Source: Paracoccus alcaliphilus (GTDB lineage Bacteria > Pseudomonadota > Alphaproteobacteria > Rhodobacterales > Rhodobacteraceae). Taken from it: 64,000 nt of DNA. The notes under the pieces are model-generated. The model made no database searches and was not told the DNA's origin. It saw nothing but the letters and a program-made list of their open reading frames with translations. Shown piece by piece: positions 7,963 through 57,364 of this stretch. The stretch's first letter is position 1, and the number at the start of each line of letters is the position of its first letter. The stretch spans positions 1,560,001-1,624,000 of the forward strand of contig NZ_CP067124.1 of assembly GCF_028553725.1 (NCBI RefSeq), read 5' to 3'. The position numbers were made by a program, and so were the translations under genes.

Positions 7963-7987
7963 ATCTTCGAGATCGTGGCCGACAGGA

Positions 7988-9676: not shown

Positions 9677-9700
9677 GCCCCCGACAATCCGGCCGGGGGC
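9677..9700 (-). terminator. Terminator-like hairpin after tRNA-Val
   Basis: GCCCCCG and CGGGGGC form a seven-base stem just downstream of the tRNA on the minus strand, followed by the T-rich stretch ATTTCGTTTT. Confidence 0.65.
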
Positions 9701-9710
9701 GGCGAATAAA

Positions 9711-9785: not shown

Positions 9786-9942
9786 GTCCTTGTGATTCTG
9801 TCAGCGTTTCCTGTGGTTGCGCCGGGTCAGAACCCCTTGGTCCGCGTGTCTATATAGTCCTGTTCCGACGGTTTCAAGGCCTATTGGAGATGTCTTTTTT
9901 TAAGCTATATAGAATATCATCTCCGGCTGACGGGACGAGACA

Positions 9943-10809: not shown

Positions 10810-10886
10810 CTGGGCCATTTTCGTATTTTCATTATCCGAAATTTAACGGCTATGCGGCACACATGCCCGCAAGAAGGAGTTGAGCG

Positions 10887-12049: not shown

Positions 12050-12456
12050 TGCCCCAGCGGCCATTTCACGGCGCGAAGCTGCTGCTGATGAATCACGGGC
12101 GGATGCTGACGCTGTTGCGGGACGATCTGGCACATATCCCCTTTCCCGCCCATTGGGACCTGCCCGGTGGCGGGCGCGAGGGGGATGAGCTGCCCGTGAC
12201 CTGCGCCCTGCGCGAACTGTCCGAGGAACTGGGCCTGCATTTTCCATCGACGCGCGTGCAGGGCAGGGCGTTCCCCTCGCATCAAGACCCCGGCATGGTC
12301 TCATGGCTGTTCACCGGCATGATTTCAAAGGCCGAAATCGCGCGGATCAGGCTGGGCGACGAAGGGCAGGAATGGCGGATGATGGCGGTTGCGGACTATC
12401 TGTGCCACCCGCGCGCCATCCCGCATTTTCAGGGATGGATCCGGGCGCTCCTGTGA
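12049..12456 (+). CDS. Nudix hydrolase
   Basis: The 135-residue protein starts at the ATG overlapping the NfeD stop codon. It contains a complete Nudix box: a glycine, five residues, a glutamate, seven residues, then RELSEELGL (about residues 43-64). These enzymes split nucleoside diphosphates linked to another group; the substrate cannot be read from the sequence. It is translationally coupled to the SPFH-NfeD pair, an association worth noting because Nudix enzymes are not regular partners of NfeD. Confidence 0.9.
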   Translation: MPQRPFHGAKLLLMNHGRMLTLLRDDLAHIPFPAHWDLPGGGREGDELPVTCALRELSEELGLHFPSTRVQGRAFPSHQDPGMVSWLFTGMISKAEIARIRLGDEGQEWRMMAVADYLCHPRAIPHFQGWIRALL

Positions 12457-12643
12457 TGGCTGCGGTGGGTGACGCCGCGCATCGGTTTTCCTTTTCAAAC
12501 AGCCATATTTGCTGTAAAGCCGCCCAATCTGTGACGTGAGGCCCGGCCCCGGGGCACATGCAAAGGATAAGGGGGCGGCGGCAATGGGGCCGCCATATGA
12601 CATGGGACGGCCGGAGGGCCGGCGCGTCCTCAGAGGAAATCAG

Positions 12644-14788
12644 ATGTTTGATGAAGTGAAGAAATCCATCCAGTGGGGTCAGGAAACCCTGACGCTGGAA
12701 ACGGGCAAGGTTGCCCGTCAGGCCGACGGCTCGGTTGTTGCCACTTTGGGCGAAACCAGCGTCATGGCCAACGTGACCTTCGCCAAGGAACCCAAGCCCG
12801 GTCAGGACTTTTTCCCGCTGACCGTGCATTATCAGGAAAAATACTATGCTGCGGGCAAGGTGCCCGGCGGCTTTTTCAAGCGCGAGGCGCGCCCGACCGA
12901 AAAAGAGACGCTGACCGCGCGTCTGATCGACCGTCCCTGCCGCCCGCTGTTCGCCCCCGGCTTCAAGCATGAAGTGCTGGTGATGTGCACCGTTCTGAGC
13001 CACGATCTGGTCAACGATCCCGATATCGTCGCCATGATCGCCGCTTCGGCTGCGCTGACCATTTCGGGCGTGCCCTTCATGGGCCCGATCGGCGCCGCGC
13101 GGGTCGGTTTCGCGCATGGCCAATATGTGCTGAACCCCGAAATCGCGGATATGGATCAGCTGCGGGGCAACCCCGAGCAGCGTCTGGATCTGGTCGTCGC
13201 CGGCACCAAGGACGCCGTGATGATGGTCGAATCGGAAGCCTATGAGCTGACCGAGGAAGAGATGCTGGGCGCGGTGAAATTCGGCCACGAGCAGATGCAG
13301 CCGGTCATCGACCTGATCATCGACCTGGCCGAAGCCGCCGCGAAAGAGCCGTTCAACTTCCAGTCGCCCGATTACAGCGCGCTTTATGCCCGCGTGAAAT
13401 CGCTGGGTGAGGCCGATATGCGCGCCGCCTATGCCATCCGCGACAAGGGTGAGCGTCGCGATGCCATCGACGTCGCCAAGGCGAAGGTCATCGAAGGTCT
13501 GACCGAAGAGGAACTGGCCGACGCGAATCTGGGCTCGGCGCTGAAAAAGCTGGAATCGGGCATCCTGCGCGGTGACATCATCAATGGCGGTGCCCGCATC
13601 GACGGTCGCGACAACAAGACCGTCCGCGCCATCGACAGCGAAGTCGGCATCCTGCCGCGCACCCACGGCTCGTCGCTGTTCACCCGTGGCGAGACTCAGG
13701 CGCTGGTCGTGACCACGCTGGGCACCGGCGATGACGAACAGATCATCGACGCGCTGCACGGCAATTTCCGGTCGAACTTCCTGCTGCACTACAACTTCCC
13801 CCCCTATTCGGTGGGCGAGGTCGGTCGTGTCGGCAGCCCCGGCCGTCGCGAAATCGGCCATGGCAAGCTGGCATGGCGTGCGTTGCAGGCGGTGCTGCCC
13901 GCCGCGACAGATTTCCCCTATACCATCCGCGTCGTGTCCGAGATCACCGAATCGAACGGCTCAAGCTCGATGGCCTCGGTCTGCGGCGGTTCGCTGTCGA
14001 TGATGGATGCGGGCGTGCCGCTGAAGGCGCCGGTTGCCGGTGTCGCGATGGGTCTGATCCTGGAAGACGACGGCCGCTATGCGGTGCTGACCGACATTCT
14101 GGGTGACGAGGATCACCTGGGCGACATGGACTTCAAGGTGGCCGGAACCGCCGAGGGGATCACCTCGCTGCAGATGGACATCAAGGTCGCGGGCATCACG
14201 CCCGAGATCATGGAGCAGGCGCTGGCGCAGGCCAAGGACGGCCGGATGCATATCCTGTCCGAGATGTCGCATGCCCTGACCGAAGGCCGCCGCGAGTTTT
14301 CCGCCCATGCCCCGCGCATCGAAACGATGCAGATCCCGACCGACAAGATCCGCGAAGTGATCGGCTCGGGCGGCAAGGTGATCCGCGAGATCGTGGAGAC
14401 CTCGGGCGCGAAGGTCGATATCAGCGACGACGGCACCATCAAGATCGCCTCGGCCAATGCCGATTCGATCAACAAGGCCTATGACATGATATATTCGATC
14501 GTGGCCGAGCCGGAAGAGGGCAAGGTCTATACCGGCAAGGTCGTCAAGCTGGTCGATTTCGGCGCCTTCGTGAACTTCTTCGGCAAGCGCGACGGGCTGG
14601 TCCATGTGTCCCAGATCGCCAACAAGCGTCTGGGCCATCCGAACGAGCTGCTGAAGGAAGGCCAGGAGGTGAAGGTCAAGCTGCTGGGCTTCGACGACCG
14701 TGGCAAGGTGCGCCTTGGCATGAAGATGGTCGATCAGGAGACCGGCGAGGAAATCACCGAGAAGAAAGAGGAATCGGCCGAAGGCTGA
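12644..14788 (+). CDS. pnp: Polyribonucleotide nucleotidyltransferase (PNPase)
   Basis: The 714-residue protein starts at [12 protein letters not shown] behind an AGAGGAA site; an upstream in-frame extension of 36 residues is not conserved-looking. Two RNase PH-like domains (about 1-210 and 310-540) flank an all-helical linker. A KH domain ([14 protein letters not shown], about 555-620) and an S1 domain ([13 protein letters not shown] to the end) follow. It degrades RNA from the 3' end by phosphorolysis and is part of the degradosome. A GC-rich inverted repeat at about 12604-12626 lies in its leader; in other bacteria a leader hairpin is used in autoregulation. Confidence 0.98.
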
Positions 14789-14810
14789 TTGCTATTGCCA
14801 AATCGCAGAA

Positions 14811-14838
14811 AATGCCCCCAATCCTTGGGGGCATTTTT
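14811..14838 (+). terminator. Rho-independent terminator of pnp
   Basis: AATGCCCCCAA and its complement close a short loop, and the stem runs into TTTTT 22 bases past the pnp stop codon. Confidence 0.92.
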
Positions 14839-14852
14839 CATGGAGGCCATGC

Positions 14853-15632
14853 GTGGCTGAACTTGCGTCGTTCTGGGTTGGTGATCGGCTTGGGCCGATC
14901 GAAATCGCCAGCCTGCGGTCGTTTCTGCGTCAGGGCGATCATGTCACGGTTTACTCACCCGCACCGATGGAAGGGCTGCCCGAGGGCGTCCTTTGGCGCG
15001 ATGCCTCGGAAATCATGCCCTGCGACCGGATCATCCGGCATCGCAGGACACAAAGCCCGGCGCTGCATTCCGACCTGTTCCGCTATCAACTGTTGGCGAA
15101 AACAGACCAGATCTGGGTCGATCTGGACATGATCGCCCTGCGTCCCTTCGAGTTCGGAAGCGAATGGGTGTTCGGCCATGAAACCCCGCAAGAGGTGAAC
15201 GGCGCGGTGCTGCATCTGCCCCGACAGTCGGAAACACTGCGCAAGCTGCTGCTTCTGACACCCGAAACGCGTGGCCTGCCGCCATTCCTGACCGGGATGC
15301 GCCGTGCGAAATACTGGCTGCGCAGCTTCGGACGGGGGTTGCCGCTTGATCGTTGGCCTTGGGGCGGGATCGGGCCGCGCGCTTTGACCTATTACCTGAA
15401 GCAGACCGGAGAAATGTCCCATGCGCTTCCGGTTTCGGCCTTCTATTTCGTTCCCATGCAGGAGGCTGCGCGTTTTGTTGAGCCGGGCGGTATAAGGCGT
15501 GCCGATCTGCCGCAGGACGCATGGGCGGTCCATCTATGGGGCAAGCAGTTGCGGCAGGCGATGGCCGCATATCATTCGGGCCAGGTTCCGCGCGGCAGCT
15601 TTCTGGACCTTGCCCTGCGTGAGGAGCTTTGA
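14853..15632 (+). CDS. Glycosyltransferase with DxD motif (capsule/LPS type)
   Basis: The 259-residue protein starts at GTG, seven bases after a GGAGG site. It has the segment DLFRYQLLAKTDQIWVDLDMI (read as DLFRYxLL then WVDLDM), whose DxD binds the metal of a nucleotide sugar. The N-terminus SFWVGDRLGPIE resembles enzymes that begin by reading a low-wealth sugar acceptor in GT32-like families. No membrane helix is seen. It overlaps the GT25 gene by one base (TGATG), so both likely modify the same lipooligosaccharide or capsule. Acceptor and sugar are unknown. Confidence 0.75.
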   Translation: MAELASFWVGDRLGPIEIASLRSFLRQGDHVTVYSPAPMEGLPEGVLWRDASEIMPCDRIIRHRRTQSPALHSDLFRYQLLAKTDQIWVDLDMIALRPFEFGSEWVFGHETPQEVNGAVLHLPRQSETLRKLLLLTPETRGLPPFLTGMRRAKYWLRSFGRGLPLDRWPWGGIGPRALTYYLKQTGEMSHALPVSAFYFVPMQEAARFVEPGGIRRADLPQDAWAVHLWGKQLRQAMAAYHSGQVPRGSFLDLALREEL

Positions 15633-45287: not shown

Positions 45288-45626
45288 TCAGCTTTCGTGA
45301 TCCTCTTCGGCGATATGGGTGGCCATGTCCCGCAGGACATGGCTGACATGGTGGTCGGCGATCTCGTAGAAGATCTGCCTGGATTGCCGTAGCCCCTTTA
45401 CCAGCCGCGCGCCGCGCAGCAGGCGCAGATGGTGGCTGACCAGCGAGACCGACAGGTCAAGCCGTTCGCCGATATCGCTGACTGGGATCGGCCCGTCCAG
45501 GCAGCACAGCACGATCCGCAGCCGCGACGGATCGCCCAGCAGGCGAAAGGTCTCGGCCAGGATCGTCACCTCGTTCCGGGACAGTGAGACGGGCCGGTTG
45601 CAGTCAGGCCCTGTGGCGGCGTCCAT
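45288..45626 (-). CDS. ArsR/SmtB-family metal-sensing repressor (alpha-5 site type)
   Basis: The 112-residue winged-helix protein has the recognition region SVSLVSHHLRLLRGARLV. In its last helix it has D-x-H-x10-H-x2-E (ADHHVSHVLRDMATHIAEE), the alpha-5 metal site of SmtB/CzrA/NmtR-type sensors for zinc, cobalt or nickel. There is no alpha-3 CVC motif, so arsenic sensing is unlikely. It may repress the convergent transporter region or its own promoter. An inverted repeat lies 74 bases upstream. Confidence 0.85.
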   Translation of the reverse strand: MDAATGPDCNRPVSLSRNEVTILAETFRLLGDPSRLRIVLCCLDGPIPVSDIGERLDLSVSLVSHHLRLLRGARLVKGLRQSRQIFYEIADHHVSHVLRDMATHIAEEDHES

Positions 45627-45699
45627 GTTTCACATGCTTTTGATCGCGTGGGTAAAGGAAATCTAGCGATGGTGAAGGCAAAGCGCAATGAAGTCGAAC

Positions 45700-45734
45700 T
45701 TCCATTGCGGTTATGCATATGATTTCCAATGGAA
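45700..45734. promoter_or_regulatory. Inverted repeat upstream of the ArsR gene
   Basis: TTCCATTG (45700-45707) and CAATGGAA (45727-45734) are perfect eight-base arms 19 bases apart, in an AT-rich stretch. It lies upstream of both the ArsR gene and the copper cluster and could be an operator. The spacing is longer than usual for a single ArsR site. Confidence 0.4.
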
Positions 45735-45811
45735 TCTGTCCTTGCACCAGAGCGAGCGGCTTCGGCCATACCTGTCTTTCCCGGCGCCTCGCGTTTCCGG
45801 CCGCTGACCCC

Positions 45812-45842
45812 TTGGCCTTCCAACGGTGGGAAGCCCTACATC
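45812..45842 (+). promoter_or_regulatory. CueR/HmrR-type copper promoter
   Basis: TTGGCC (-35) and TACATC (-10) are separated by 19 bases, the over-long spacer typical of MerR-family promoters. The spacer holds the dyad CTTCC-N7-GGAAG, matching the centre of CueR/HmrR operators. It points at the metal-chaperone gene start at 45876. The matching regulator gene lies at 47231. Confidence 0.65.
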
Positions 45843-45875
45843 AGGAACCTGAAACGCAAATCAGGAGGGTTTTTC

Positions 45876-45992
45876 ATGAAATTCCACGTTTCCGACATGG
45901 CCTGCGGCGGCTGCGCGCGCTCGGTCGCCGCGGCCATCGCCGTGCTGGACGCGCAGGCGAAGGTCAAGGCGGATACCGCATTGCGGACCATC
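45876..45992 (+). pseudogene. Heavy-metal-associated (CopZ-like) chaperone, 5' fragment
   Basis: An AGGAGGG site precedes MKFHVSDMACGGCARSVAAA, with the copper-binding CxxC (GGC reads as CGGC). Similarity to the ~65-residue HMA fold ends after about 39 residues (KADTALRTI). Beyond that the frame is unrelated, because the end of a DUF305 gene has been joined to it. The second half of the fold is missing. Confidence 0.75.
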
Positions 45993-46056
45993 TGGTCGAC
46001 ACCACACCGGCACCAGCGGGGCCGACAGCCCCTCGACCGTTACCTATGTCGAGGGG

Positions 46057-46281
46057 ATGGAGAAGATGCACCAGGAAATGATGATCGACTATACCGGCGA
46101 TGCCGATGTCGATTTCATGCGTGGCATGATCCCGCATCATCAGGGCGCCATCGACATGGCGCGAATCGGATTGGAGCATGGCACGGACCCGCAGGTGCGC
46201 CAACTGGCCGAGGAGGTGATCGAGGCACGGGAGGCCGAAATCGCCATGATGCGCAAATGGCTGGCGGATCGCGGACAATAG
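46057..46281 (+). pseudogene. DUF305 protein, N-terminally truncated
   Basis: The 74-residue frame reads MEKMHQEMMIDYTGDADVDF, MIPHHQGAIDMARI and EIAMMRKWL, the core of DUF305 with its His-rich motif, which binds copper in CopM. The same frame without a start runs back to about 46024. The signal peptide of intact family members is missing, so even if it is translated from 46057 it would stay in the cytoplasm. It was fused to the HMA fragment by a deletion. Confidence 0.7.
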
Positions 46282-46442
46282 GCGCGAACCAGACGGGGCC
46301 GGCTTGCAGGGCCGACCATTCCTGCCCGCGGGTGAGCATCTGGGAAACCGCTTCCCGCCGGACCGATTGTCTTTGGACGAGGGGCCGCTCACCCGAACAT
46401 GATCGCCAGCCTGCCGCGCGGCGATCCTGAAAGGAGAAGATC

Positions 46443-47215
46443 ATGGCAGAGACCCCGAAACGCGCCGAACTTTACCGGATGGTGACCGCGGAACATACCT
46501 GCCCCTTCGGGCTGAAATCGCTCGACCTGCTGAAGCGCGAGGGCTACGAGGTTGAGGATCACTACCTGACCGACCGGGCTGCGAGGGACGCCTTCAAGGC
46601 GCAACATGGTGTCGAGACCACGCCCCAGAGTTTCATCGACGGAAAACGCATCGGCGGCTATGACGACCTTCTGGCCTTCTTCGGCAAGCAGGTGCAGGAC
46701 AAGGGCGCCCCGACCTACCGGCCGGTGATCGCGCTTCTCGCGATGGCCGCGGTGATGGCGTTGGCGACAAGCTGGGCCGCTCTCGGCAGCCTGGTGACGG
46801 TGCAGGCGGCGGAATGGTTCGTCGCCATCGCCATGTGCCTGCTGGCGCTGCAGAAGCTGAAGGATGTCGAGGGCTTCTCGACCATGTTCTTGAACTACCA
46901 CCTGCTGGCGCAGCGATGGGTGCGCTATGGCTATGTCTATCCCTTCGCCGAGGCGCTGGCGGGCATCCTGATGGTCGCGGGCGCGATGATGTGGCTGTCT
47001 GGCTGTCGATCCCGGTCGCGCTGTTCATCGGCACGGTGGGTGCGGTATCGGTTTTCAAGGCGGTCTATATCGACAAGCGCGAGTTGAAATGCGCCTGTGT
47101 CGGTGGCGACAGCAACGTGCCTTTGGGCTTCGTGTCGCTGACCGAGAACCTGATGATGGTCGCCATGGCGCTGTGGATGCTGCTCAAGCCGATGGGCGTC
47201 GGACTGGGTCATTAG
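46443..47215 (+). pseudogene. Glutaredoxin-MauE fusion protein, frameshifted by an 8-bp duplication
   Basis: The first part has a glutaredoxin domain (HTCPFGLKSLDLL, with CPFG; TTPQSFIDGKRIGG) and then MauE-type membrane helices (about 90-185). At 46992-47007 the eight bases TGGCTGTC occur twice in a row. This shifts the frame to a premature stop at 47087. Removing one copy restores MMWLSIPVALFIGTVGA, KCACVGGDSNVPLGF and a normal end at 47215. The intact form, about 254 residues, would be a membrane redox protein of the kind often found beside copper genes. Confidence 0.85.
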
Positions 47216-47230
47216 GGAAGAAATGGCAGG

Positions 47231-47665
47231 ATGAATATCAGTCAGGCGGCGAAAGCCTCGGGCGTATCGGCCAAGATGATCCGCTATTACGAGCAGACCG
47301 GTCTGATCCCCCCGGCGGATCGCACCGTCTCGGGCTATCGCGACTATTCCGGCAAGGACGTGCATATGCTGCGCTTCATCCGCCGGGCGCGCGACCTCGG
47401 TTTTTCCGTGGCAGAGATCGACGGATTGCTGGGCCTCTGGTGCGACAAGTCACGCCAAAACAGCGAGGTCAAGAGCATCGCCCGCGACCATATCGCCGCG
47501 CGGGTGAGCAATATCCGCAACCTCCAGGAGATGACGGGAACGCTGAAGGACCTCGTCCGCTCCTGCCGGGGCGATCACCGCCCGGACTGCCCGATCCTCG
47601 AACGACTGGAGACGGATCAGCCGGATGAAGACCTGACCATCCGCCCACGAAGCGGCGCCGTCTGA
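47231..47665 (+). CDS. hmrR: HmrR/CueR-family copper-responsive regulator
   Basis: The 144-residue MerR-type protein has the helix-turn-helix ISQAAKASGVSAKMIRYYE (seen as MIRYYEQTGLI), the dimerisation helix and the copper loop with Cys112 and Cys120 in CRGDHRPDCPIL, the spacing that marks Cu(I)/Ag(I) sensors. It probably activates the 19-base-spacer promoter at 45812. It lies 15 bases after the glutaredoxin-MauE gene and appears intact, while most of its likely targets here are broken. Confidence 0.9.
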   Translation: MNISQAAKASGVSAKMIRYYEQTGLIPPADRTVSGYRDYSGKDVHMLRFIRRARDLGFSVAEIDGLLGLWCDKSRQNSEVKSIARDHIAARVSNIRNLQEMTGTLKDLVRSCRGDHRPDCPILERLETDQPDEDLTIRPRSGAV

Positions 47666-47813
47666 ACGACTGCGGTGTCGGGGTTGCCTGAACCTTCTTC
47701 CGGTCGCGCCACGGGGCAGGGCAGGCGAACCGGTTGGCCCGGATGCTGGTCACGCTGACCCACCGGCAAGGCGGACAGGCGCAATAAGTTGAAAGGCGGA
47801 TGATGCGGTTCCT

Positions 47814-48277
47814 CTAGCCATTTGTGTCGGGTGCCGGATTCTTCAGGAATTCGATCATCGGCCCGATATCTTCGTCGGCCAGCCCCTCGAACCTCATGCG
47901 CGAGCCGGGCACAACCCCGTATGGATCGGCCAGGAAGTCGCGAAGCGTCGCTTCGTCCCAGGTCAACCCGCTGTCCCGCATCGCCTGGGAATAGGGGTAA
48001 TCCGTGCTTGCCACGGGCTTGCCGACGATCCCGGTCAGCTGTGGTCCAGAGGTGGCGCGCGCGCCCTCGCCGACCTGATGGCAATGGGCGCAAGGCTCGA
48101 ATATCCGGGCGAAGGTTTCCGGCGGGGGCAACCCCGGTGCCGCCGTCGCCTGCGCGGTTTCCGGCCGGGTTTCGGCGGCGCTGTTATGCGCGGCCGAAAC
48201 CCGGTGACGATCAGCGCGATCCCCGCGCCGAGAATGGCCACAGCGGCGATCCCAAGCAGCAATTTTCGCAAAGCCAC
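47814..48277 (-). pseudogene. Membrane-anchored cytochrome c, frameshifted in a G-run
   Basis: The gene starts MALRKLLLGIAAVAILGAG, a signal anchor, at 48277. The c-type cytochrome part lies in another frame: SAAHNSAAETRPE, then CAHCH (haem motif), GPQLTGIVGKP and a PGSRMRF methionine ligand. Adding one G to the three-base run at 48200-48202 on the minus strand joins both parts into one ~155-residue protein. The intact form would be a small periplasmic electron carrier. Confidence 0.75.
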
Positions 48278-49556: not shown

Positions 49557-50201
49557 CTACGAACGGCTTCGGCGCACCGCTGCGATCATCGAGCGAAGCT
49601 CGTCCAGCGATTGCTTGCCGAATGCGCCGAAGTCCCCGGCGATGAAGGTGGGCGTGCCGGCCAGCCCCATTTTCTCGGCCAGAATCCAGGAATGTTCGAT
49701 CTGCCGGGCGATCACGATGCCCTCCATATCCGCGCGCAGGCGGTTCCTGTCCAGCCCGACGACTTCGGCGACAGCAAGGGCGCTCTTGTCATCCGCCTGG
49801 CCCTCGATGCCCATCAGCCCCGCATGGAACTGCCAGAACTTCTGCTGCCGCAACGACGCCAGCGAGGCGCGGGCGCAGTAAAGCGATGCTGCGCCCAAGA
49901 CCGGCCATTCCCGTAACACGACCCGCAGGCGCGGATCTTCCCAGATCAGCTGGCGGATATCGGGGACCGAGGCGCGGCAATAGGGGCAGTTGTAATCGAA
50001 GAACTCGGTCAGCGTGACGTCGCCCGAGGGGTTGCCCAGGACCGCGCCAAGCTGTTCCTGCTCCAGGGCCTGCCGCAGGTCCGGGGGCATCGGATTGTCC
50101 TGCGCACGCGCGGATATCCCGCCGGCTGCCAGGATGCTTGCGGCGATGCCGGTCCGCAGGAAACGCCGGCGGGCGGGATCGGGTCTGTTGCTCTGTGCCA
50201 T
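49557..50201 (-). CDS. DsbA-family periplasmic thiol protein (module A)
   Basis: The 214-residue protein starts at MAQSNRPDPARRRFLRTG; the twin arginines and hydrophobic stretch to SARAQ suggest a Tat signal. The thioredoxin active site is FFDYNCPYCRAS (Cys72, Cys75), with the cis-Pro loop GLAGTPTFIAGD. It is of the DsbA/ScsC-like type that can accept electrons from a DsbD-like membrane protein. It is divergent from an L,D-transpeptidase, and two CTTAAG-type boxes lie between them. A second, similar protein is encoded at 56726. Confidence 0.9.
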   Translation of the reverse strand: MAQSNRPDPARRRFLRTGIAASILAAGGISARAQDNPMPPDLRQALEQEQLGAVLGNPSGDVTLTEFFDYNCPYCRASVPDIRQLIWEDPRLRVVLREWPVLGAASLYCARASLASLRQQKFWQFHAGLMGIEGQADDKSALAVAEVVGLDRNRLRADMEGIVIARQIEHSWILAEKMGLAGTPTFIAGDFGAFGKQSLDELRSMIAAVRRSRS

Positions 50202-50247: not shown

Positions 50248-50264
50248 CTTAACCCAACCTTAAG
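50248..50264. promoter_or_regulatory. Response-regulator box, CTTAAC-N5-CTTAAG
   Basis: Two half-sites 11 bases centre to centre match the YTTAAK-N5-YTTAAK form of PmrA/QseB-type boxes. It is the box nearer the minus-strand DsbA-like gene, 47 bases upstream of its start. Confidence 0.7.
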
Positions 50265-50291
50265 AGACTGTCCTGTCTGCGCCCGCACGCC

Positions 50292-50308
50292 CTTAAGCTG
50301 CGCTTAAG
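50292..50308. promoter_or_regulatory. Response-regulator box, CTTAAG-N5-CTTAAG
   Basis: Perfect half-sites flank CTGCG. It lies 58 bases upstream of the L,D-transpeptidase start and is nearly identical to the box at 53362 in the promoter of the two-component system. Confidence 0.78.
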
Positions 50309-50365
50309 CTTGGCCGGCCATCCGGGATGCGGGGTAATGCCCCTGAACGACTGGAGCATGAAACT

Positions 50366-51067
50366 ATGGACCAATCTTGTCATCCACGCCTGTCCGGGCC
50401 GCGCAAACAGGCTGACGCTTCCGGCGGCGGAACGGGCAGGCGCGCTTTTCTGGGCGGATTGCTGGCCGGCGGACTGGCGCTGCCGCGCATCGCATCGGCG
50501 CAGGCGGTCGACCCTACCATCGGGCACGCCCTCTACGGCGCATCGGCTGCGGGGCAGGCTCCCGATATGAGCGTCGATCAGATCAATCCGGCGCAAGACG
50601 CACGGCGAAACATATCGTCCTTCAGGGGCCTCGACTGGCGGGATTTCTATCCGACGCCGGGCAAGGGCGTTATCCTGGCGGATGTGACGTCGCGCACGCT
50701 GCATTTCTGGTCGGGCGACGAAAACACCTATCTGGTTTTCCCGTCCTCGATCCCGGTTTCGGAGGAACTGACCAAGCGCGGCAAGACCGAGGTCGTGCGC
50801 AAGGCGGAGCGTCCATCCTGGACCCCGACCCCCAGCATGCGGGAACGCGACCCGACCTTGCCGCAACGGGTCGAAGGCGGGGCCGCGGACAACCCCCTGG
50901 GCGTCTACGCGCTTTACCTTTCGTGGCCCGCCTACCTGATCCACGGCACCCATAACACGCGCAAGATAGGGCGCAAGTCGTCCAGCGGCTGCTACGGGCT
51001 TTACAACGAACATATCGCCCGTCTTTACCCGCTGGTTGAGGTGGGAACGCAGGTGACCATCTTCTGA
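50366..51067 (+). CDS. L,D-transpeptidase (YkuD), Tat-exported (module A)
   Basis: The 233-residue protein has a twin-arginine signal (GRRAFLGGLLAGG, Arg25-Arg26, with cleavage after ASA near 45) and a YkuD domain. The catalytic motif is IHGTHNTRKIG followed by SSSGCYGLYN with Cys209. These enzymes form 3-3 cross-links in peptidoglycan or attach proteins to it. Their active cysteine must be kept reduced, which fits the redox genes around it. It is divergent from the DsbA-like gene and carries its own CTTAAG box. Confidence 0.9.
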   Translation: MDQSCHPRLSGPRKQADASGGGTGRRAFLGGLLAGGLALPRIASAQAVDPTIGHALYGASAAGQAPDMSVDQINPAQDARRNISSFRGLDWRDFYPTPGKGVILADVTSRTLHFWSGDENTYLVFPSSIPVSEELTKRGKTEVVRKAERPSWTPTPSMRERDPTLPQRVEGGAADNPLGVYALYLSWPAYLIHGTHNTRKIGRKSSSGCYGLYNEHIARLYPLVEVGTQVTIF

Positions 51068-51102
51068 GGGGCGTGGGGCGTGGGGCGTGGGGCGTGGGGC
51101 GG
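51068..51102. repeat. Five-copy 7-bp tandem repeat (GGGGCGT)
   Basis: GGGGCGT is repeated four times exactly, with a fifth copy changed in its last base (GGGGCGG). It begins at the first base after the L,D-transpeptidase stop codon. About 170 bases of non-coding sequence follow before the end of the kinase gene. Confidence 0.9.
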
Positions 51103-51274
51103 CTGGCGGACCGGCGCCCTGCTGTCTTGTGCTCTGCGCTGGACCGAGCCGCGATTGAAGCGCGTGATGGGGGTGGTCTGCCTCGCTAATGCCGGTGCCT
51201 GGGGCGGTTCTGCGTCTGACAGAACGGCCGGCCGCCGGGTGGCAGCATATCCCAGCCTGAACAGCCCCCGCCTC

Positions 51275-52648
51275 TCACGAAGGTGAGGCCTGCGCCTCGC
51301 CCGGCAGGATGATTTCGGCCCGTTCGCCGCCGCCTTCACGGGGGGTGAGGGACAGTTCCCCGCCCATCGCCTTGACGGCTGCGGCGGTGATCGACAGGCC
51401 CAGTCCGCTGCCGCCGCCCGAGGGGCTGGCCGCGCCGCGATAGAAGCGCTCGGTGACATGGGGGCGGTCGGTCTCGCTGATGCCGGGGCCGCGGTCCAGC
51501 ACGCTGAAGCGGATCCTGCCTTCGTCGCGCGCCAGCCGCGCCTCGACGGTGGTGCCCATGGGCGAGGCGAGGATGGCGTTTTCCAGCAGGTTGCGCAGGG
51601 CCGGGGCCAGCAGCGCCGCCTGCGTGCTGCGCCATTCGGTCTCGCCGGTTTCCAGCCGCAGGGTGACGCCGCGCGACCCGGCCAGCCCGCCAAGCGCCCC
51701 GGCCACATCGGCGAGGATCTTCGCGCCATCCTCGGGCGGGGCGGCGCTGTCGATGGGGTTCTCGGTCGCGGTCATGTCCAGAAGCTGGCGCACCATGCGG
51801 TCGGTGCGGTCCACGCCCTGCGCGATCTGCGCCAGCGCCCGGTCGCGGGTCGCGGCATCGGGGGAGAGCGTCGCGATCTGCGCCTGCGTTTTCAGCCCGG
51901 CCAGCGGAGTCTTCAGCTCATGCGCGGCAAAGGCGGTGAAGCTGCGCTCGCGCTCGCGCAACCCCTCGACGCGGTGAAACAGCCCGTTCAGCGCCTCGAT
52001 CATCGGGCGCAGTTCCGCGGGCGCACGGGTTTCTCCCAGCGGGCTGAGGTCGGTCGCCGGGCGGCGCGACAGCGCCTGGGCCAGCCGGTCCAGCGGCGCC
52101 AGCCCGCCGCGCACCGCCAGCCAGATCAACGCGGCCAGCAGCGGCAGGACCAGCATGGCCGGGGCCAGAAGCCCCATCGCCACCCCATGCACCAGCCGCT
52201 CGCGCATGAAACGCGCATCGCCGACCATGACGCGGATGCCCAACTCCGTGTCGACATGGGTATAGACGCGCCAGACCTCACCATCGACCTCGCGCTCACT
52301 GAAGCCTTCCTGGTCGGCGAGTTGCCCGGACGGTGCGCCGTCGGATTCGCTTTTCAACTGGCCGTCGAAGCCCCAGACTTGGCAGATCAGCTGGCGGGCG
52401 ACGTCGTGGCGGCCGGTATTGGGCGAGGCGGGGGCGTCACCCACCAGCGATGCCGCGTCCGGCCCGGCGATGCCGCCGTTGCGCCGGATCAGCGAGGCGA
52501 CCATCTGCGCCGATTCCTGCAAGCGCCGGTCCAGCACATGGCCGACCTCGGTGCGGGTCGAATGCTGGATCCAGATCACGGCGAAGAGCCAGATCGCCCC
52601 GGTTCCGGCCAGCAGGATGATGAGCAGCCGCCTGCGGATCGAACTCAT
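51275..52648 (-). CDS. Sensor histidine kinase, QseC/PmrB type
   Basis: The 457-residue protein has two membrane helices (about 8-27 and 155-180) around a periplasmic sensor of about 125 residues. A HAMP-like segment, a HisKA domain with His243 in FAAHELKTPLAG and an ATPase domain (GGSGLGLSI G2 box) follow. It overlaps its regulator gene by four bases (ATGA). The periplasmic domain contains one cysteine (QLICQVWGF), which could take part in thiol sensing; this is an inference. Confidence 0.92.
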   Translation of the reverse strand: MSSIRRRLLIILLAGTGAIWLFAVIWIQHSTRTEVGHVLDRRLQESAQMVASLIRRNGGIAGPDAASLVGDAPASPNTGRHDVARQLICQVWGFDGQLKSESDGAPSGQLADQEGFSEREVDGEVWRVYTHVDTELGIRVMVGDARFMRERLVHGVAMGLLAPAMLVLPLLAALIWLAVRGGLAPLDRLAQALSRRPATDLSPLGETRAPAELRPMIEALNGLFHRVEGLRERERSFTAFAAHELKTPLAGLKTQAQIATLSPDAATRDRALAQIAQGVDRTDRMVRQLLDMTATENPIDSAAPPEDGAKILADVAGALGGLAGSRGVTLRLETGETEWRSTQAALLAPALRNLLENAILASPMGTTVEARLARDEGRIRFSVLDRGPGISETDRPHVTERFYRGAASPSGGGSGLGLSITAAAVKAMGGELSLTPREGGGERAEIILPGEAQASPS

Positions 52649-53316
52649 GCCTCGCGCCCCCTGTCCTCCAGCCGGTATCCCGCCCCGCGCAGGGTCTGGA
52701 TGAAGTCCCGGCCCAGCTTGGCGCGCAGGTGGTGGATATGAACCTCGACGGTATTGCTTTCGACGTCCTCCTGCCAGCCGTAAAGCCGTTCCTCAAGTTG
52801 CGTCTTGGACAGGATGCGGCCCGGATGTTCGGCCAGCGCATGCAGGACGGCGAATTCGCGGCGCGAAAAGCGCAACTCGCGGTCCTCGATGCGCCCGGAC
52901 TGCGTTGCTGGGTCCAGCCGCAGCCCGTTCCATTCGATCACCGCCGCGGCGCGGCCTTCCTGCCGGCGCAGTATGGCGCGGATACGGGCGGCGAGTTCCT
53001 CCAGATCGAAGGGCTTGCCCAGGTAGTCGTCCGCCCCCGCGTTCAGCCCCGACACTCGGTCGCGCACCCGGTCGCGGGCGGTCAGCAGCAGCACCGGCAG
53101 CTGCGATCCCGTCCCGCGCAAATCGGCCAGCAGGTCAAGGCCCGAGCCATCGGGCAGCATGATGTCCAGCACCATGCCCGCAAAGCCGCCGCCCTCCAGC
53201 GCCGCGCGGGCATCGGCCAGCGTGCCCACCGCATCGGCGGTGAAGCCCGACAGGCCCAGCCCGACGGCGATCCCATCGGACAGGACCGGGTCGTCCTCGA
53301 CAATCAGCAGGCGCAT
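52645..53316 (-). CDS. OmpR-family response regulator, QseB/PmrA type
   Basis: The 223-residue protein has a receiver domain with VEDDP, phosphoacceptor Asp51 (LDIMLPDGSG) and Lys101 (LGKPFD). A winged-helix DNA-binding domain ends NTVEVHIHHLRAKLG and TLRGAGYRLE. PmrA and QseB proteins bind YTTAAK-N5-YTTAAK. Boxes of exactly this form are found in the only two divergent promoters of this gene group, one of them upstream of this gene itself. Confidence 0.93.
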   Translation of the reverse strand: MRLLIVEDDPVLSDGIAVGLGLSGFTADAVGTLADARAALEGGGFAGMVLDIMLPDGSGLDLLADLRGTGSQLPVLLLTARDRVRDRVSGLNAGADDYLGKPFDLEELAARIRAILRRQEGRAAAVIEWNGLRLDPATQSGRIEDRELRFSRREFAVLHALAEHPGRILSKTQLEERLYGWQEDVESNTVEVHIHHLRAKLGRDFIQTLRGAGYRLEDRGREA

Positions 53317-53361
53317 GGCGTGTTCCTTTCGGCCTTGTCGATCACGCTTTCGTCGATGAAG

Positions 53362-53378
53362 CTTAAGCTGGGCTTAAG
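53362..53378. promoter_or_regulatory. Response-regulator box, CTTAAG-N5-CTTAAG
   Basis: Perfect half-sites flank CTGGG. The box lies between the response regulator (46 bases away) and dsbD (24 bases away), so it can serve autoregulation and activation of the dsbD operon. Confidence 0.78.
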
Positions 53379-53401: not shown

Positions 53402-55186
53402 ATGATGACGAGAATGTTTGCCGCCCTGATCTTTGCCCTGCTGCTGCTTGCCGGTTTCCTGACGGCAGCGCAGGCGCAGCCCCTGCAACCCGAGGACGCT
53501 TTCGCCCTGACTGTCAGCCAAGGCGAGGGTGATGCGCTGGTCCTGAACTGGCGCATCGCCGATGGCTATTACCTCTATCGCAGCAGCTTCGCGGCAGAGG
53601 TGGACGGCCAGAGCCTGCCGCTGTCCCTGCCCGAGGGCGAGGTCTACGAGGATCCCTATTTCGGCGAGGGGCAGATCTATCGCGGTGCGGTCACGGCAAG
53701 GCTTGAGAACCTGGGCAAGCCGGTCATCCTGCATTGGCAGGGCTGCCAGCAGGACGGCATCTGCTATGCCCCGCAAAGCGTCCGGCTGGACGGCGACGGC
53801 GCGGTGCTGGCGGATGACACCGCCGCCAGCGGGTGGAGCCCGCAGCCGCAGGACGCGTCCGGTCCAGCCGATGCGGCGCAGACCGGATTGACGCTGGCGC
53901 AGGATCAGGGGGTGGTGCAGGGGCTGGCCGCGCGTGGCGGCGGGGCGCTGGTGATCGCGGGATTCCTCGGCTTCGGGCTGCTGCTGGCCTTTACGCCTTG
54001 CGTCTTTCCGATGTTCCCCATCGTCGCCGGAATGCTGGCCTGGCAGGGGCAGTCCCTGACCGCCAGGCGCGGCCTGGCCCTGACGGGCGCCTATGTGCTG
54101 GCGATGGCCGCCGCCTTCGGCCTGCTGGGTATCGCCGCGGCATGGTCGGGGGCGAATTTGCAGATGGCATTGCAATCGCCCATCGCCATCGGCCTGATCG
54201 CGGTGATTTTCGTCGCGCTGGCCCTGTCTATGTTCGGCTTCTACGAATTGCAGATGCCGATGGCCCTGCAGGCCCGGCTTGGGCGTATCGGCGGCAGGCG
54301 CGGATCGGTCGGCGGTTCGATGGTGCTGGGCTTTACCTCGGCGCTGATCGTCGGGCCCTGCGTGACCGCGCCGCTGGCCGGGGCGCTGCTCTATATCGCG
54401 CAGACCGGCGACGTGATGCTGGGGGCGGCGGCGCTGTTCGCGCTGGGGCAGGGGCAGGGGGTGCCGCTGCTGGCCATCGGGGTCTTCGGCCCGCGCATCT
54501 TGCCCCCCAGCGGCGGCTGGATGGAGGTCGCGAAGCGCGCCTTCGGCGTGATCTTCCTCGGTTTCGCGATCTGGCTGGCGGGGCGGGTGCTGCCGGGGCC
54601 GGTCACGCTGACGCTGTGGGCCGCGCTGCTGGTGGGGACGGCGGTGTTCCTGGGCGCGCTGGACCGGCTGGAGCGCGATGCGACCCGCAACCGCCGCCTT
54701 GGCGCGGCGCTTGGCGTGCTGCTGCTGTTCGCCGGGCTGTTGCAGGGCTTCGGCGCGGCGCTTGGCGCGCATGATCCGCTGCGGCCGCTGGCGCCGCTGG
54801 CAAGCGGCGCGGGACCCGCGCAGCCGCAGGCGCAATTCGCCGAGGTGACCACGCGCGAGGGACTGGACCGGGCGCTGGCCTCGGCTGAGGGCAGGTCGGC
54901 GCTGCTCTATCTGACCGCTGACTGGTGCGTGACCTGCCGTGCCATCGAGCGCGGTCCGCTGACCGACCCGGCGGTCCATGCCGCGCTGGCCGATATGGCT
55001 GCGATCAAACTGGATGTGAGCGATTTCAACGCCGAGGCGCAGGCGCTGATGCAGGATCTGGCCGCCGCCGGTCCGCCGACGATGATCTTCCTCGACGCGG
55101 CCCGCGCCGAGGCAGCCGGCAGCCGGCTGATCGGCGACCTGGACAGCGCGGCGCTCCTGGCCTCGATCGGCAAGGTCAGCCCATGA
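53402..55186 (+). CDS. dsbD: Thiol:disulfide interchange protein DsbD
   Basis: The 594-residue protein has a signal peptide (ends AQAQ), a periplasmic N-domain with the C-x5-C pair in GCQQDGICYAP, and eight membrane helices. These contain the two redox cysteines in AFTPCVFPMFP and VGPCVTAPLAG. A C-terminal thioredoxin domain has DWCVTC. It brings electrons from cytoplasmic thioredoxin to periplasmic thiol proteins. Since only 24 bases separate the box and first ATG, one of the later ATGs (53405 or 53414) may be used. It is first in a four-gene operon with overlapping ends. Confidence 0.94.
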   Translation: MMTRMFAALIFALLLLAGFLTAAQAQPLQPEDAFALTVSQGEGDALVLNWRIADGYYLYRSSFAAEVDGQSLPLSLPEGEVYEDPYFGEGQIYRGAVTARLENLGKPVILHWQGCQQDGICYAPQSVRLDGDGAVLADDTAASGWSPQPQDASGPADAAQTGLTLAQDQGVVQGLAARGGGALVIAGFLGFGLLLAFTPCVFPMFPIVAGMLAWQGQSLTARRGLALTGAYVLAMAAAFGLLGIAAAWSGANLQMALQSPIAIGLIAVIFVALALSMFGFYELQMPMALQARLGRIGGRRGSVGGSMVLGFTSALIVGPCVTAPLAGALLYIAQTGDVMLGAAALFALGQGQGVPLLAIGVFGPRILPPSGGWMEVAKRAFGVIFLGFAIWLAGRVLPGPVTLTLWAALLVGTAVFLGALDRLERDATRNRRLGAALGVLLLFAGLLQGFGAALGAHDPLRPLAPLASGAGPAQPQAQFAEVTTREGLDRALASAEGRSALLYLTADWCVTCRAIERGPLTDPAVHAALADMAAIKLDVSDFNAEAQALMQDLAAAGPPTMIFLDAARAEAAGSRLIGDLDSAALLASIGKVSP

Positions 55187-55983
55187 ACGCGGTCTCGATC
55201 GGCCCGCTGGTATTCGACGGCACGCGCTTCGCCGCCGTCGTTGGCCTGCTCTCGTTCTTCGCCGTGGCCGAGATCATGGCGCGGCTGCAAAAGAGCGATG
55301 CGGCGCGATGGGCGGGATTCGCCGTGCTGGCCTGGATCGCCGCCGCGCGCGTGGGTTTCGTGGCCGCGAACTGGCCCGCCTTCGCCGCCCATCCGCTGGA
55401 CGCGTTGAAGCTGTGGCAAAGCGGTTTCCTACCCGCCGCGGGCTGGGCGGGCGGCATTGCCGTCCTGCTGGCGGCACTGCTGCGCAGGGCACGGGCCGCG
55501 GTTCTGCCGCTGGCGCTTGGCGGCGTGGCGGCGCTGGCCGCGCATCAGGCCGTCACTGCCGCGCTGACGCGCCCGGCGGTCACGATTCCCGACATGCAGC
55601 TGATCGCGCTGGACGGCAGCGCGGTGCAACTGGCCGGGCGCGACTGGCCGGTGGTGCTGAACCTCTGGGCGACATGGTGCCCGCCCTGCCGGCGCGAGAT
55701 GCCGATGATGACCGAACTGGCCGCCAATACGCCCGGCGTGGATTTCGTCTTCGCCAATCAGGGCGAGGATGCCGGACAGGTCCTGGCCTTTCTGGAGGCC
55801 GAGGGCCTGCCCGCCGAGGGCATGATCCGCGATCCGCGCAACCGGCTGATGGCGGAACTGGACGCCATCGGCCTGCCCGCGACGCTGGTTTTTGATGCGA
55901 AGGGCCGGATGGTCGCGGCGCATACGGGCGAGATCTCGCGCGCCGCCCTGACCCGGATGATCGCGCAAGCGACAGGAGAATGA
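55183..55983 (+). CDS. TlpA-like membrane thioredoxin with N-terminal helices
   Basis: The 266-residue protein has about four N-terminal hydrophobic helices (residues 8-125) and a C-terminal TlpA/ResA thioredoxin fold with NLWATWCPPCRREMP and the GLPATLVF cis-Pro loop. The active site would face the periplasm. It overlaps dsbD and the next gene by four bases each (ATGA). The order DsbD, TlpA-like, DsbA-like recalls the copper-tolerance scsBCD set of enterobacteria; here an L,D-transpeptidase gene is added to it. Confidence 0.88.
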   Translation: MNAVSIGPLVFDGTRFAAVVGLLSFFAVAEIMARLQKSDAARWAGFAVLAWIAAARVGFVAANWPAFAAHPLDALKLWQSGFLPAAGWAGGIAVLLAALLRRARAAVLPLALGGVAALAAHQAVTAALTRPAVTIPDMQLIALDGSAVQLAGRDWPVVLNLWATWCPPCRREMPMMTELAANTPGVDFVFANQGEDAGQVLAFLEAEGLPAEGMIRDPRNRLMAELDAIGLPATLVFDAKGRMVAAHTGEISRAALTRMIAQATGE

Positions 55984-56711
55984 CGATGAACCCGATACGA
56001 ACCACATTGGCGGGTGCGGCGCTGCTGACGCTGGCGGCCTGCGCCTCGACCGAACCGGCGGCCCCCGCCGATCCGCCCCCGCCTGCCGCCAGCCCAGAGG
56101 TCGCCGCGATGTATGGCGCGATGGACGATAACGGCCACCATATCCCCGCTGTCGATCCCAACCTTCTGACCGGGGACAAGGCGCGGCGGGTGGTGGATTA
56201 CTGGACGGATGAGAGGCCGGGCACGATCATCGTCGATCCCCATGCGCGCTACCTTTATCAGGTGCAGCGTGGCAACAAGGCGATGCGCTATACCGTGGCG
56301 GTGGGTGCGGCAGGCTACGGCTTCACCGGCGAGGCGCATATCCCCTATCAGCGCGACTGGCCAAGCTGGAAGCCTACCGACAACATGGTCGCGACCCAGC
56401 CCGAGCTTTACGGCCCGGTCGAGGCCGGGCTGGAAGGCGGTCCCGACAACCCAATGGGCGCCCGCGCGCTTTATCTGCATAACAGCGGGGGCGATACCTT
56501 CTATCGCATCCACGGCACGATGGACCCGGCCTCGATCGGGCGCTCGGACACGGCGGGCTGCATTCGCCTCTTCAATCAGGACATCATCCACTTGGCCGAA
56601 CAGACCGGCAGCATGACCAAGGTGATCGTGCTGAGCGAGGCGGAATCGGGCAAGGGCACCGTGCCGCCCCGCCAGCCGCTGCCACAACCAGCCATGATGG
56701 CCGCCAGCTAG
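55980..56711 (+). CDS. L,D-transpeptidase (YkuD) lipoprotein (module B)
   Basis: The 243-residue protein has a lipoprotein signal (LLTLAAC, Cys21) and a YkuD domain with RIHGTMDPASIG and SDTAGCIRLFNQD carrying the catalytic cysteine. It is translationally coupled to the TlpA-like gene. In contrast with the first L,D-transpeptidase of this region it is lipid-anchored instead of Tat-exported. The substrate role is peptidoglycan 3-3 linking or anchoring. Confidence 0.91.
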   Translation: MTMNPIRTTLAGAALLTLAACASTEPAAPADPPPPAASPEVAAMYGAMDDNGHHIPAVDPNLLTGDKARRVVDYWTDERPGTIIVDPHARYLYQVQRGNKAMRYTVAVGAAGYGFTGEAHIPYQRDWPSWKPTDNMVATQPELYGPVEAGLEGGPDNPMGARALYLHNSGGDTFYRIHGTMDPASIGRSDTAGCIRLFNQDIIHLAEQTGSMTKVIVLSEAESGKGTVPPRQPLPQPAMMAAS

Positions 56712-56725: not shown

Positions 56726-57364
56726 ATGAGCATCACCCGACGCGAGATTCTTGCCCTTACCGCCGGGGCCGGGCTTGCGGGAATCGCAGGTGGGGCTGTC
56801 CTGTGGACCAGGGGCCGCGGAACCGAGACGGCCGGCCTGACCATCGAGGACGTGCTGCACGACCCCGACAACCCGGTCCTGGGCAACCCCGAGGGCGCGC
56901 TGACCATCGTCGAATATTTCGACTACCAATGCCCTTACTGCAAGATGGGCCATTCGATGTTGACCGGGGCGGTGGCCGAGGATGGCGATATCCGGCTGGT
57001 GATGAAGGACTGGCCGATCTTCGGCGAGCCCTCCGTTCGTGCCAGCCAGTTAGTTTTCGGGGCGGCATCATTGGGGGCTTACGAACAGGCCCATGAGGCG
57101 CTGATGGCGACCCGGGCGCGGCTGACCGAGGATGAGGTCCGGCAGGTCTTGGGGGACGGCGGCATCGACACCGATGCGGCGCTGGCCGCCTATCGCGCCG
57201 AACGCGGCAAATGGGACGGGCTTCTGGGCCGCAATTCGGCGCAGGCCGCCGAACTGGGCTTGCAGGGCACGCCCGCCTTCATCATCGGCGCCCGCATCCA
57301 TCCCGGCGCGCTGGACGAAACCCGCTTGCGTGCGGCTATCGCCGAGGTCCGGCAAGCGTCGTGA
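56726..57364 (+). CDS. DsbA-family periplasmic thiol protein (module B)
   Basis: The 212-residue protein starts MSITRREILALTAGAG, with twin arginines that fit a Tat or an uncleaved anchor signal. The active site is YFDYQCPYCKMG (Cys69, Cys72) and the cis-Pro loop GLQGTPAFIIGA. It resembles the module A protein over its whole length. It is last in the dsbD operon, 14 bases after the transpeptidase gene, behind AGGAGGA. Its stop codon lies at the junction with a fragment of an unrelated gene. Confidence 0.91.
   Translation: MSITRREILALTAGAGLAGIAGGAVLWTRGRGTETAGLTIEDVLHDPDNPVLGNPEGALTIVEYFDYQCPYCKMGHSMLTGAVAEDGDIRLVMKDWPIFGEPSVRASQLVFGAASLGAYEQAHEALMATRARLTEDEVRQVLGDGGIDTDAALAAYRAERGKWDGLLGRNSAQAAELGLQGTPAFIIGARIHPGALDETRLRAAIAEVRQAS

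Follow-up and report, generated by a model that had tools for sequence, protein, structure and literature searches.

The two-component system DsbRS of Pseudomonas is the closest described counterpart of a gene cluster in the stretch of Paracoccus alcaliphilus DNA analysed here, in which a regulator/kinase pair, thiol-redox genes and two L,D-transpeptidase (LDT) genes are accompanied by boxes of the form CTTAAG-N5-CTTAAG. This stretch, called the window, is G000:C1:1560001-1624000 (64 kb of the 4.77-Mb genome; G000 is the organism's own genome and C1 its contig). The DsbR consensus in Pseudomonas is said to be TTA-N8-TTAA and the copper cysteine of the system Cys82, as reportedly described by Yu et al. 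in Sci. Bull. in 2022. LDTs work by one cysteine, and the E. coli DsbD-DsbG pathway is said to protect single cysteines, with LDTs as clients of DsbG (reportedly Depuydt et al. in 2009). When DsbS of P. aeruginosa binds copper, its phosphatase activity is inhibited, and DsbR becomes active (PMC10141476). The dsbR and dsbD genes of P. fluorescens are transcribed away from each other, dsbE and dsbG follow dsbD, and the gap holds a predicted DsbR site (PMC13101516). In E. coli the Cpx system increases DsbA together with two LDTs, YcbB and YcfS (q 0.06 for YcfS; PMC4985592), and LdtD belongs to the Cpx regulon (PMC12729407). DsbG controls periplasmic sulfenylation, DsbD maintains both DsbC and DsbG in the reduced state, and E. 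coli without dsbC is copper-sensitive (PMC3463561). The system in the window is best read as an alphaproteobacterial variant of the copper-responsive DsbRS.

The cluster consists of dsbA2 (49557..50201, minus strand), ldt2 (50366..51067, plus), a DsbS-like sensor histidine kinase gene (51275..52648, minus), a DsbR-like response regulator gene (52645..53316, minus), and the operon of dsbD (53402..55186, plus), a tlpA-like gene (55183..55983, plus), ldt1 (55980..56711, plus) and dsbA1 (56726..57364, plus). Three boxes had been described in an earlier, sequence-only reading of the window, and a rescan returned the same positions and sequences exactly. An exact box, CTTAAG-CTGGG-CTTAAG, lies at 53362..53378 (plus strand) in the regulator/dsbD gap and starts 40 bp before the dsbD ATG. 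A second exact box, CTTAAG-CTGCG-CTTAAG, at 50292..50308 (plus) most likely serves ldt2, and an imperfect one with a single mismatch, CTTAAC-CCAAC-CTTAAG at 50248..50264 (plus), reads CTTAAG-N5-GTTAAG towards dsbA2. The window contains five CTTAAG hexamers, every one within these three boxes. Three boxes with at most one mismatch compare with a mean of 0.02 in 100 dinucleotide shuffles, none of which reached three. In the whole genome the exact degenerate pattern YTTAAK-N5-YTTAAK occurs at four sites, the two in the window and two more at C1:529125 and C1:533153, while 0.007-0.03 exact boxes per genome are expected from the window composition. With one mismatch allowed, the degenerate pattern gives ten sites beyond the box at 50248; the reversed control pattern, with 41 forward and 29 reverse hits against 11 and 11 in all, is commoner than the real one, so the ten extra sites look like background. 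The boxes themselves are genuine, well in excess of what chance would give.

The two further exact boxes lie 4 kb apart inside a paralogous copy of the whole cluster (L016, G000:C1:520001-540000, 7808-15247; identifiers of this kind denote fetched genome stretches). All four exact sites of the 4.77-Mb genome are thus confined to the two cluster copies, which favours the predicted regulon over a random scatter of boxes. The statement that the boxes occur only in the dsbA2/ldt2 and regulator/dsbD promoters is true of the window, and of the genome once the paralogous copy is counted. Identity between the copies is 91 percent for the regulator, 88 for the kinase, 85 for DsbD, 93 for the TlpA-like protein, 88 for Ldt1 and 81 for DsbA1; it is 49 percent for Ldt2 and 51 for DsbA2. 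In the second copy ldt2 and dsbA2 run in the same direction with one box ahead of ldt2, whereas in the window they are divergent and have two boxes. As a side observation, ldt2 and dsbA2 of the second copy are of a different type, and transposase-like open reading frames (ORFs) are seen close by on inspection by eye.

Conservation was followed in a genus set of 125 genomes and a family set of 294 further genomes, 293 of them from other genera. The genus is Paracoccus, since stretches taken from G035, G118, G072 and G011 match the DNA of P. indicus, P. versutus, Paracoccus sp. TOH and P. aminophilus. The exact CTTAAG-N5-CTTAAG box was found at 67 sites in 32 of the 125 genus genomes (reversed control, 19), and DsbD homologues in 24 genomes (26 loci). 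The box is present in all 24 genomes with DsbD, versus 8 of the 101 without it (Fisher 3e-19, kinship ignored). The family set contains 19 exact boxes in 17 genomes and DsbD in ten genomes; both occur together in eight, so that the box accompanies 8/10 genomes with DsbD versus 9/284 without (Fisher 8e-10, kinship likewise ignored). In the genus maps the boxes stand ahead of regulator/dsbD, dsbA2 and ldt2 and between divergent pairs, in varied gene orders. The regulator/kinase pair is divergent from the dsbD operon in the window, in most genus dsbD loci and in several family loci, and ldt1 lies inside the dsbD-tlpA-ldt1-dsbA1 operon in most genus loci. A one-mismatch box stands beside dsbA2 in six of the seven relatives with divergent dsbA2 and ldt2 (L076, L086, L094, L098, L099, L104); the seventh, L089, has one exact box there instead. 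In L121, L122, L131, L132 and L135, ldt2 has a box with no dsbD in the same stretch; at the search threshold no DsbD was found in the genomes of L121, L122, L132 and L135, and the genome of L131 has DsbD elsewhere. Since ldt2 keeps its box where dsbD is absent from the stretch, it is regarded as a core member and not as a passenger of dsbD.

The association was also measured gene by gene, a box with at most one mismatch being sought within 250 bp upstream of each homologue. The counts omit low-bit matches (two dsbD fragments, eight regulators, three kinases, two tlpA, six ldt1 and two dsbA2), and two of the omitted regulators (L082, L149) adjoin cluster genes. Such a box precedes 34 of 36 distinct dsbD genes (35/37 rows, one locus being duplicated), 35/38 regulators, 22/34 ldt2 and 21/32 dsbA2 genes. 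The controls, mostly inner-operon genes, gave 0/39 for the kinase, 1/35 for tlpA, 2/29 for ldt1 and 1/34 for dsbA1, and the Markov controls gave 0.0000. The two dsbD genes that were missed have a two-mismatch box at -39. No such box precedes the regulators of L120, L148 and L101, the last of which follows a dsbA2 gene with an exact box in front of it. Seven of the 12 box-less ldt2 genes belong to the dsbD operon, where they follow dsbA1 co-directionally after 32-47 bp, and loci with a box between dsbA1 and ldt2 offer 63-86 bp of room. For the other five, the box is exact but some 290-450 bp upstream (L082, L131, L135), carries two mismatches (L123) or is absent (the second copy in L105). The dsbD box starts at -40 in 18 and at -39 in five of the 35 rows, with variable spacers; the dsbD starts were chosen by script, and rows printed further off often also have an ATG at the same short distance. 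In most dsbD rows an ATG follows about 23 bases past the box, and the closer Paracoccus rows have a TAGC block between the two. A box-to-ATG distance of about 23 bases suggests that the dsbD transcript may be leaderless or nearly so.

The 86 exact boxes of genus and family (67 + 19) can largely be accounted for, 75 of them lying at cluster genes or partners. By script, 70 are at most 450 bp from a member start; four precede ldt2 by its ORF start (L072, L120, L121, L132), and one lies inside the cluster just behind ldt2 (L076:5676). Two kinds of additional member appear in relatives. A ccoN-like oxidase subunit has an exact box 84-128 bp upstream in eight of the nine copies found (L073, L076, L085, L093, L102, L104, L130 and L133, two of them outside Paracoccus), and the ninth (L096) has a one-mismatch box nearby. 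The match of this protein to TIGR00780 is far under the cut-off; the ccoN of the own genome is only distantly related (32 percent) and has no box beside it. A SoxB-like metallophosphatase has a box 62-65 bp upstream in L080 (17702-18568) and L085 (12698-14128), and in L085 one box is common to this gene and the divergent ccoN-like gene. SoxB-like copies without a box are those of L073 and L093 and a second, distant copy in L080.

Beyond the two sets, the best 80 of 578 DsbD loci in named genomes were inspected. The pair is divergent from dsbD in seven of the 80 (L170, L171, L175, L180, L206, L213, L217); two of these, the P. indicus and P. versutus rows L170 and L171, repeat L085 and L107, and the Frigidibacter row likewise repeats L147. 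Pair, exact box, dsbD and LDT occur together in Rhizobium sp. TH135, a Hyphomicrobiales metagenome-assembled genome and Acuticoccus kalidii, and also in the repeated P. indicus and P. versutus rows. In Palleronia aestuarii the dsbD-tlpA-ldt-dsbA operon comes with a one-mismatch box, ldt2 is preceded by an exact one, and no linked pair was found. The non-alphaproteobacterial, DsbRS-like loci L213 and L217 have the pair, dsbD and tlpA, and GTTAAT-N5-CTTAAT in the gap, the two gaps resembling each other around this element. The remaining rows show at most regulator matches of 25-39 percent or a lone one-mismatch box, and three of those with a weaker regulator match have a kinase downstream of dsbD. 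No regulator, LDT or box was found in 64 of these 80 loci. On plasmids, an exact box occupies the regulator-dsbD gap in Agrobacterium tumefaciens K224 (operon order dsbD-tlpA-ldt-dsbA, then another ldt), Bradyrhizobium sp. SK17, Roseinatronobacter sp. S2 and Limimaricola variabilis; the box ahead of dsbD has one mismatch in Ensifer sp. PDNC004 and in Palleronia sp. LCG004, and two in Roseovarius indicus. Neither a box nor a linked pair accompanies dsbD at the plasmid loci examined in Burkholderia and Marinomonas. A class-wide DsbD search (337 genomes, E 1e-70, at most three candidates scored in each) returned only the own genome and is taken as uninformative, because the locus turned up in Hyphomicrobiales when plasmids and named genomes were searched. 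The box thus follows its genes through rearrangement and across genera, and the prediction of one regulon made up of the kinase-regulator pair, DsbD, the TlpA-like protein, two DsbA-like proteins and two YkuD LDTs is upheld; that these genes form a single regulon appears almost certain from the sequence comparisons.

The dsbD product has DsbD_N, DsbD_TM and thioredoxin domains and scores 477.5 bits against NF001419 (cut-off 330). The TlpA-like thiol:disulfide protein (Redoxin, 3.3e-15, scanned from 55174) has a long N-terminal part ahead of its thioredoxin-like domain and is under the TlpA and DsbE cut-offs; the ATG at 55183 was picked as its start, where the homologue in the second copy starts as well. 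Both DsbA-like proteins have a CPYC motif (DSBA, 2.1e-21 for DsbA1 and 4.4e-19 for DsbA2) and match only DSBA and Thioredoxin_4, with no DsbC/DsbG dimerisation domain in the Pfam scan. DsbA2 has a twin-arginine-type signal by eye; 50201 was picked as its start, and the domain scan used an upstream extension to 50288. Ldt1 (YkuD, 1e-14, motif HGT...AGCIRL) is judged by eye a likely lipoprotein; among its 29 homologues scoring 150 bits or more, 28 have a single cysteine beyond residue 45. Ldt2 (YkuD, 7.3e-19; twin-arginine-type signal by eye; alternative upstream start possible at 50327) has the motif S-x-G-C-x-G-L and thus, unlike SxGCxR, no arginine after the cysteine. Its residues R25, R26, H193, C209 and G211 are identical in 14/14 aligned sequences (34 homologues found), and its structure model is poor (mean predicted local distance difference test score, pLDDT, 63.7). 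Both enzymes are above the PF03734 cut-off and have the HGT and GC motifs with the catalytic histidine and cysteine, and they are predicted YkuD L,D-transpeptidases. A short tandem run of GGGGCGTG-like units is seen at 51067-51105, right behind the ldt2 stop codon.

The regulator is of the OmpR/PhoB class (Response_reg and Trans_reg_C), and the kinase has one cysteine, C89, in a 2CSK_N sensor domain. Among the 25 best matches of either protein, no cut-off of a named system in NCBIfam is reached. The names QseBC and PmrAB proposed by the sequence-only reading do not hold: against QseBC the regulator scores 205.6 bits (QseB cut-off 345) and the kinase 211.9 (QseC cut-off 475), and against PmrAB 223 bits (PmrA cut-off 330) and 148.3 (PmrB cut-off 314). 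With all these NCBIfam scores under the cut-offs, a true QseBC or PmrAB was rejected; the CpxR model gives the regulator 116.2 bits against a cut-off of 341. YTTAAK-N5-YTTAAK is the form of PmrA-like sites, and the box had been assigned to the PmrA/QseB type on this ground. The family label fails, but the assignment itself was reasonable, most of the residues that read the DNA being PmrA-like. Over residues 1-218 the regulator and Klebsiella PmrA (4S04, 8JO2) give an ungapped alignment, and in PmrA the bases are contacted by N188, N196 and R210 together with T187, V192 and H195 (PMC4660055). In 38/38 regulator homologues of at least 200 bits D51, N188, V192, H195 and R210 are identical; residue 187 is serine in all 38, and position 196 varies (17 H, 16 K, four N and one R). 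The regulators are thus like Klebsiella PmrA in keeping N188, V192, H195 and R210 and unlike it in S187, in the H or K mostly found at 196, in gene neighbourhood and in family score. Cysteine C89 of the kinase is present in 38/38 homologues above 300 bits, a 39th (250-300 bits) being outside the alignment, and in 10/10 sequences of a further alignment which includes two non-alphaproteobacterial DsbRS-like loci and in which L158 repeats L075. Written as C-TTA-AGN5C-TTAA-G, the window box fits the consensus given for DsbR, TTA-N8-TTAA, letter for letter.

The conserved boxes, the gene order, the active-site and sensor cysteines and the mostly PmrA-like DNA-reading residues are read from the sequences themselves, and an explanation built on them as a DsbRS-type regulon that joins a relay to LDTs is likely as a whole. 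The boxes would be operators of the linked DsbR-like activator of the OmpR family, a dimer of which would occupy the directly repeated CTTAAG half-sites, spaced by one helical turn, and drive its own operon, dsbD-tlpA-ldt1-dsbA1, ldt2 and dsbA2. The DsbS-like kinase would respond through its conserved sensor cysteine C89, the likely detector of copper or thiol stress. Induction would supply a thiol-reducing relay (DsbD, TlpA-like, DsbA-like) along with two LDTs whose catalysis depends on a cysteine in the periplasm; the relay would keep or return the catalytic cysteine of the LDTs in the thiol form under copper or thiol stress, and the extra LDTs would restore wall cross-links or outer-membrane tethers. 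Binding, activation, the signal, the direction of electron flow and the LDTs as clients are what we infer here. That the LDTs are clients of the reductant relay is about evenly balanced in our judgement, leaning slightly to the negative.

Several observations weigh against this explanation. Eleven of the 86 exact boxes stand at no known member (L074, L077, L079, L084, L090, L097 and L106 in the genus, where the neighbouring genes were in part surveyed; L119, L124, L125 and L128 in other genera). In L161, L162, L213 and L217, dsbD has a tlpA-like or dsbA-like partner and an LDT was neither annotated nor found. A CPYC DsbA could oxidise instead of reduce, and since the DsbA-like proteins match no DsbC/DsbG dimerisation domain the electrons may flow in either direction. 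In 22 of the 34 ldt2 homologues more than one cysteine follows residue 45. Reduction of an H. pylori LDT in vitro by the DsbG-like HP0231 has been questioned, HP0231 being an oxidase there (PMC3463561). Five copper-island stretches lack any box with fewer than two mismatches, and several relatives adjoin sulfur genes (bigR-blh, YeeE, DsrE). Apart from these points, the isolated exact boxes at L079:9029, L084:8018 and L090:6433 look like one shared site in three Paracoccus genomes, which in L079 and L084 lies between an ORF that by eye resembles uroporphyrin-III methyltransferase and a very large ORF.

The strongest alternative keeps the regulon and gives the LDTs another role: they would not be redox clients but would be co-induced for wall strength, as LdtD is by Cpx, or would replace LDTs poisoned by copper. 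Cpx offers a precedent both in LdtD (PMC12729407) and in the joint rise of DsbA, YcbB and YcfS (PMC4985592), and copper inhibition of LDTs is reportedly the subject of a paper. We give this alternative real weight while thinking it rather less than probable, as ldt1 lies within dsbD-tlpA-ldt1-dsbA1 in most genus loci and in Agrobacterium, and Ldt1 keeps its single cysteine after residue 45 in 28/29 homologues. Ldt2 shows a single cysteine past residue 45 in 12/34 homologues, the window copy included. The operon place of ldt1 and its single cysteine favour a direct link between relay and LDT, as far as gene order and sequence can tell, without proving it.

A second alternative leaves the same regulon in place and changes the signal to reactive sulfur (sulfide, persulfide, sulfite) or oxidised thiols, copper being incidental. 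It draws on bigR-blh and YeeE/YedE neighbours in Agrobacterium, YeeE/YedE and ArsR-family genes in Bradyrhizobium, DsrE with a metallo-beta-lactamase (MBL)-fold hydrolase in Limimaricola, and the SoxB-like gene with a box in two relatives; these sulfur-gene neighbours mean that the signal may not be copper. Against it stand the copper precedent of DsbRS and the occurrence of ldt2-type genes in plasmid copper islands, box-less as these are. All five records opened, of 133 with a match, proved to be such islands (two nearly alike), in Phaeobacter, Sulfitobacter, Dinoroseobacter, Tabrizicola and P. yeei, with varying sets of DUF411, SCO, PCu(A)C, multicopper oxidase, metal ATPase, DsbA/DsbB and CueR genes as neighbours. 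In four of them (L154, L155, L156, L159) no box was found at up to two mismatches, and L153 has only one, with two mismatches. As the islands lack the box, they support a copper link for the enzyme and not for the box. Copper or copper-linked thiol damage is the favoured signal, and sulfur, though unlikely in our estimate, is its serious rival. In the window itself CueR (47231-47665) is above its cut-off and 2.6 kb from the first box. The neighbouring stretch 45288-48131 carries an ArsR-type regulator, a glutaredoxin-MauE-like protein, CueR and cytochrome c, and also an ORF with a CGGC stretch that has a metal-binding look by eye and no Pfam match.

That the linked pair is incidental and the box the target of a different OmpR-family regulator, for example a true PmrA or QseB, is highly improbable. 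The PmrA-like form of the site is the point in its favour; against it, box and regulator co-occur across genera, the scores are under the QseB and PmrA cut-offs, and the sole close paralogue of the regulator in the own genome (91 percent; the next, 41 percent) sits at the other two exact boxes. Chance palindromes can be dismissed, for although CTTAAG is itself palindromic and the half-sites are short, three boxes against 0.02 expected in the window, a dsbD box at -40 or -39 in 23/35 box-bearing rows with variable spacers, and the whole-genome, genus, family and gene-anchored counts contradict them.

The coupling of an envelope signalling system to thiol redox and LDTs had been thought not to be described. 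This was too wide, since dsbDEG is already under two-component control through DsbRS, and both DsbA and LDTs are raised by Cpx; what stands is narrower, no report of LDTs as core members of a DsbRS-type regulon having been found among the papers listed in searches of an open-licence library. We propose tentatively, and with less confidence than for the clients themselves, that in Alphaproteobacteria the DsbRS switch has been turned into a wall-repair module, in which one regulator would make the DsbD-driven relay and, with it, the LDTs that are its clients, among them a distinct SxGCxG class (ldt2) whose box persists where dsbD is missing. If this is true, damage to periplasmic thiols would itself serve as the order to remodel peptidoglycan when copper, sulfide or oxidants stress the cell, and thiol repair in the periplasm would be tied with L,D-cross-linking into one inducible unit. 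The survival of single-cysteine wall enzymes under copper and oxidants would become a question addressable in one operon, and the precise box could be used to find the regulon in other genomes. The SxGCxG L,D-transpeptidases, apparently an uncharacterised class, would be marked as stress enzymes, and a function would be offered for the LDT genes in Rhodobacterales copper islands.

Compared with the known systems, the locus resembles Cpx in that one envelope two-component system would raise DsbA and L,D-transpeptidases, and it differs in its regulator, which scores under the cut-off of the CpxR model; to our knowledge the Cpx box differs from CTTAAG-N5-CTTAAG and no LDT lies inside a dsbD operon there. 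It resembles the E. coli DsbD-DsbG pathway in the proposed functional pairing of a DsbD-fed reductant with single-cysteine LDTs. Here the genes lie in one operon or have common boxes, whereas we know of neither one operon nor one regulon for the DsbD, DsbG and LDT genes of E. coli. With DsbRS-dsbDEG it shares the pair divergent from the dsbD operon, a TlpA/DsbE-like partner and the predicted site in the shared gap, and its conserved sensor cysteine C89 may correspond to the Cys82 described for P. aeruginosa DsbRS. It differs in having ldt1 within the operon, ldt2 and dsbA2 with boxes of their own, ccoN-like and SoxB-like genes with boxes added in relatives, and DsbA-like proteins in the place of DsbG, which is not encoded. 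Since the operon is without DsbG, the system is called a DsbRS-type variant and not DsbRS-dsbDEG itself.

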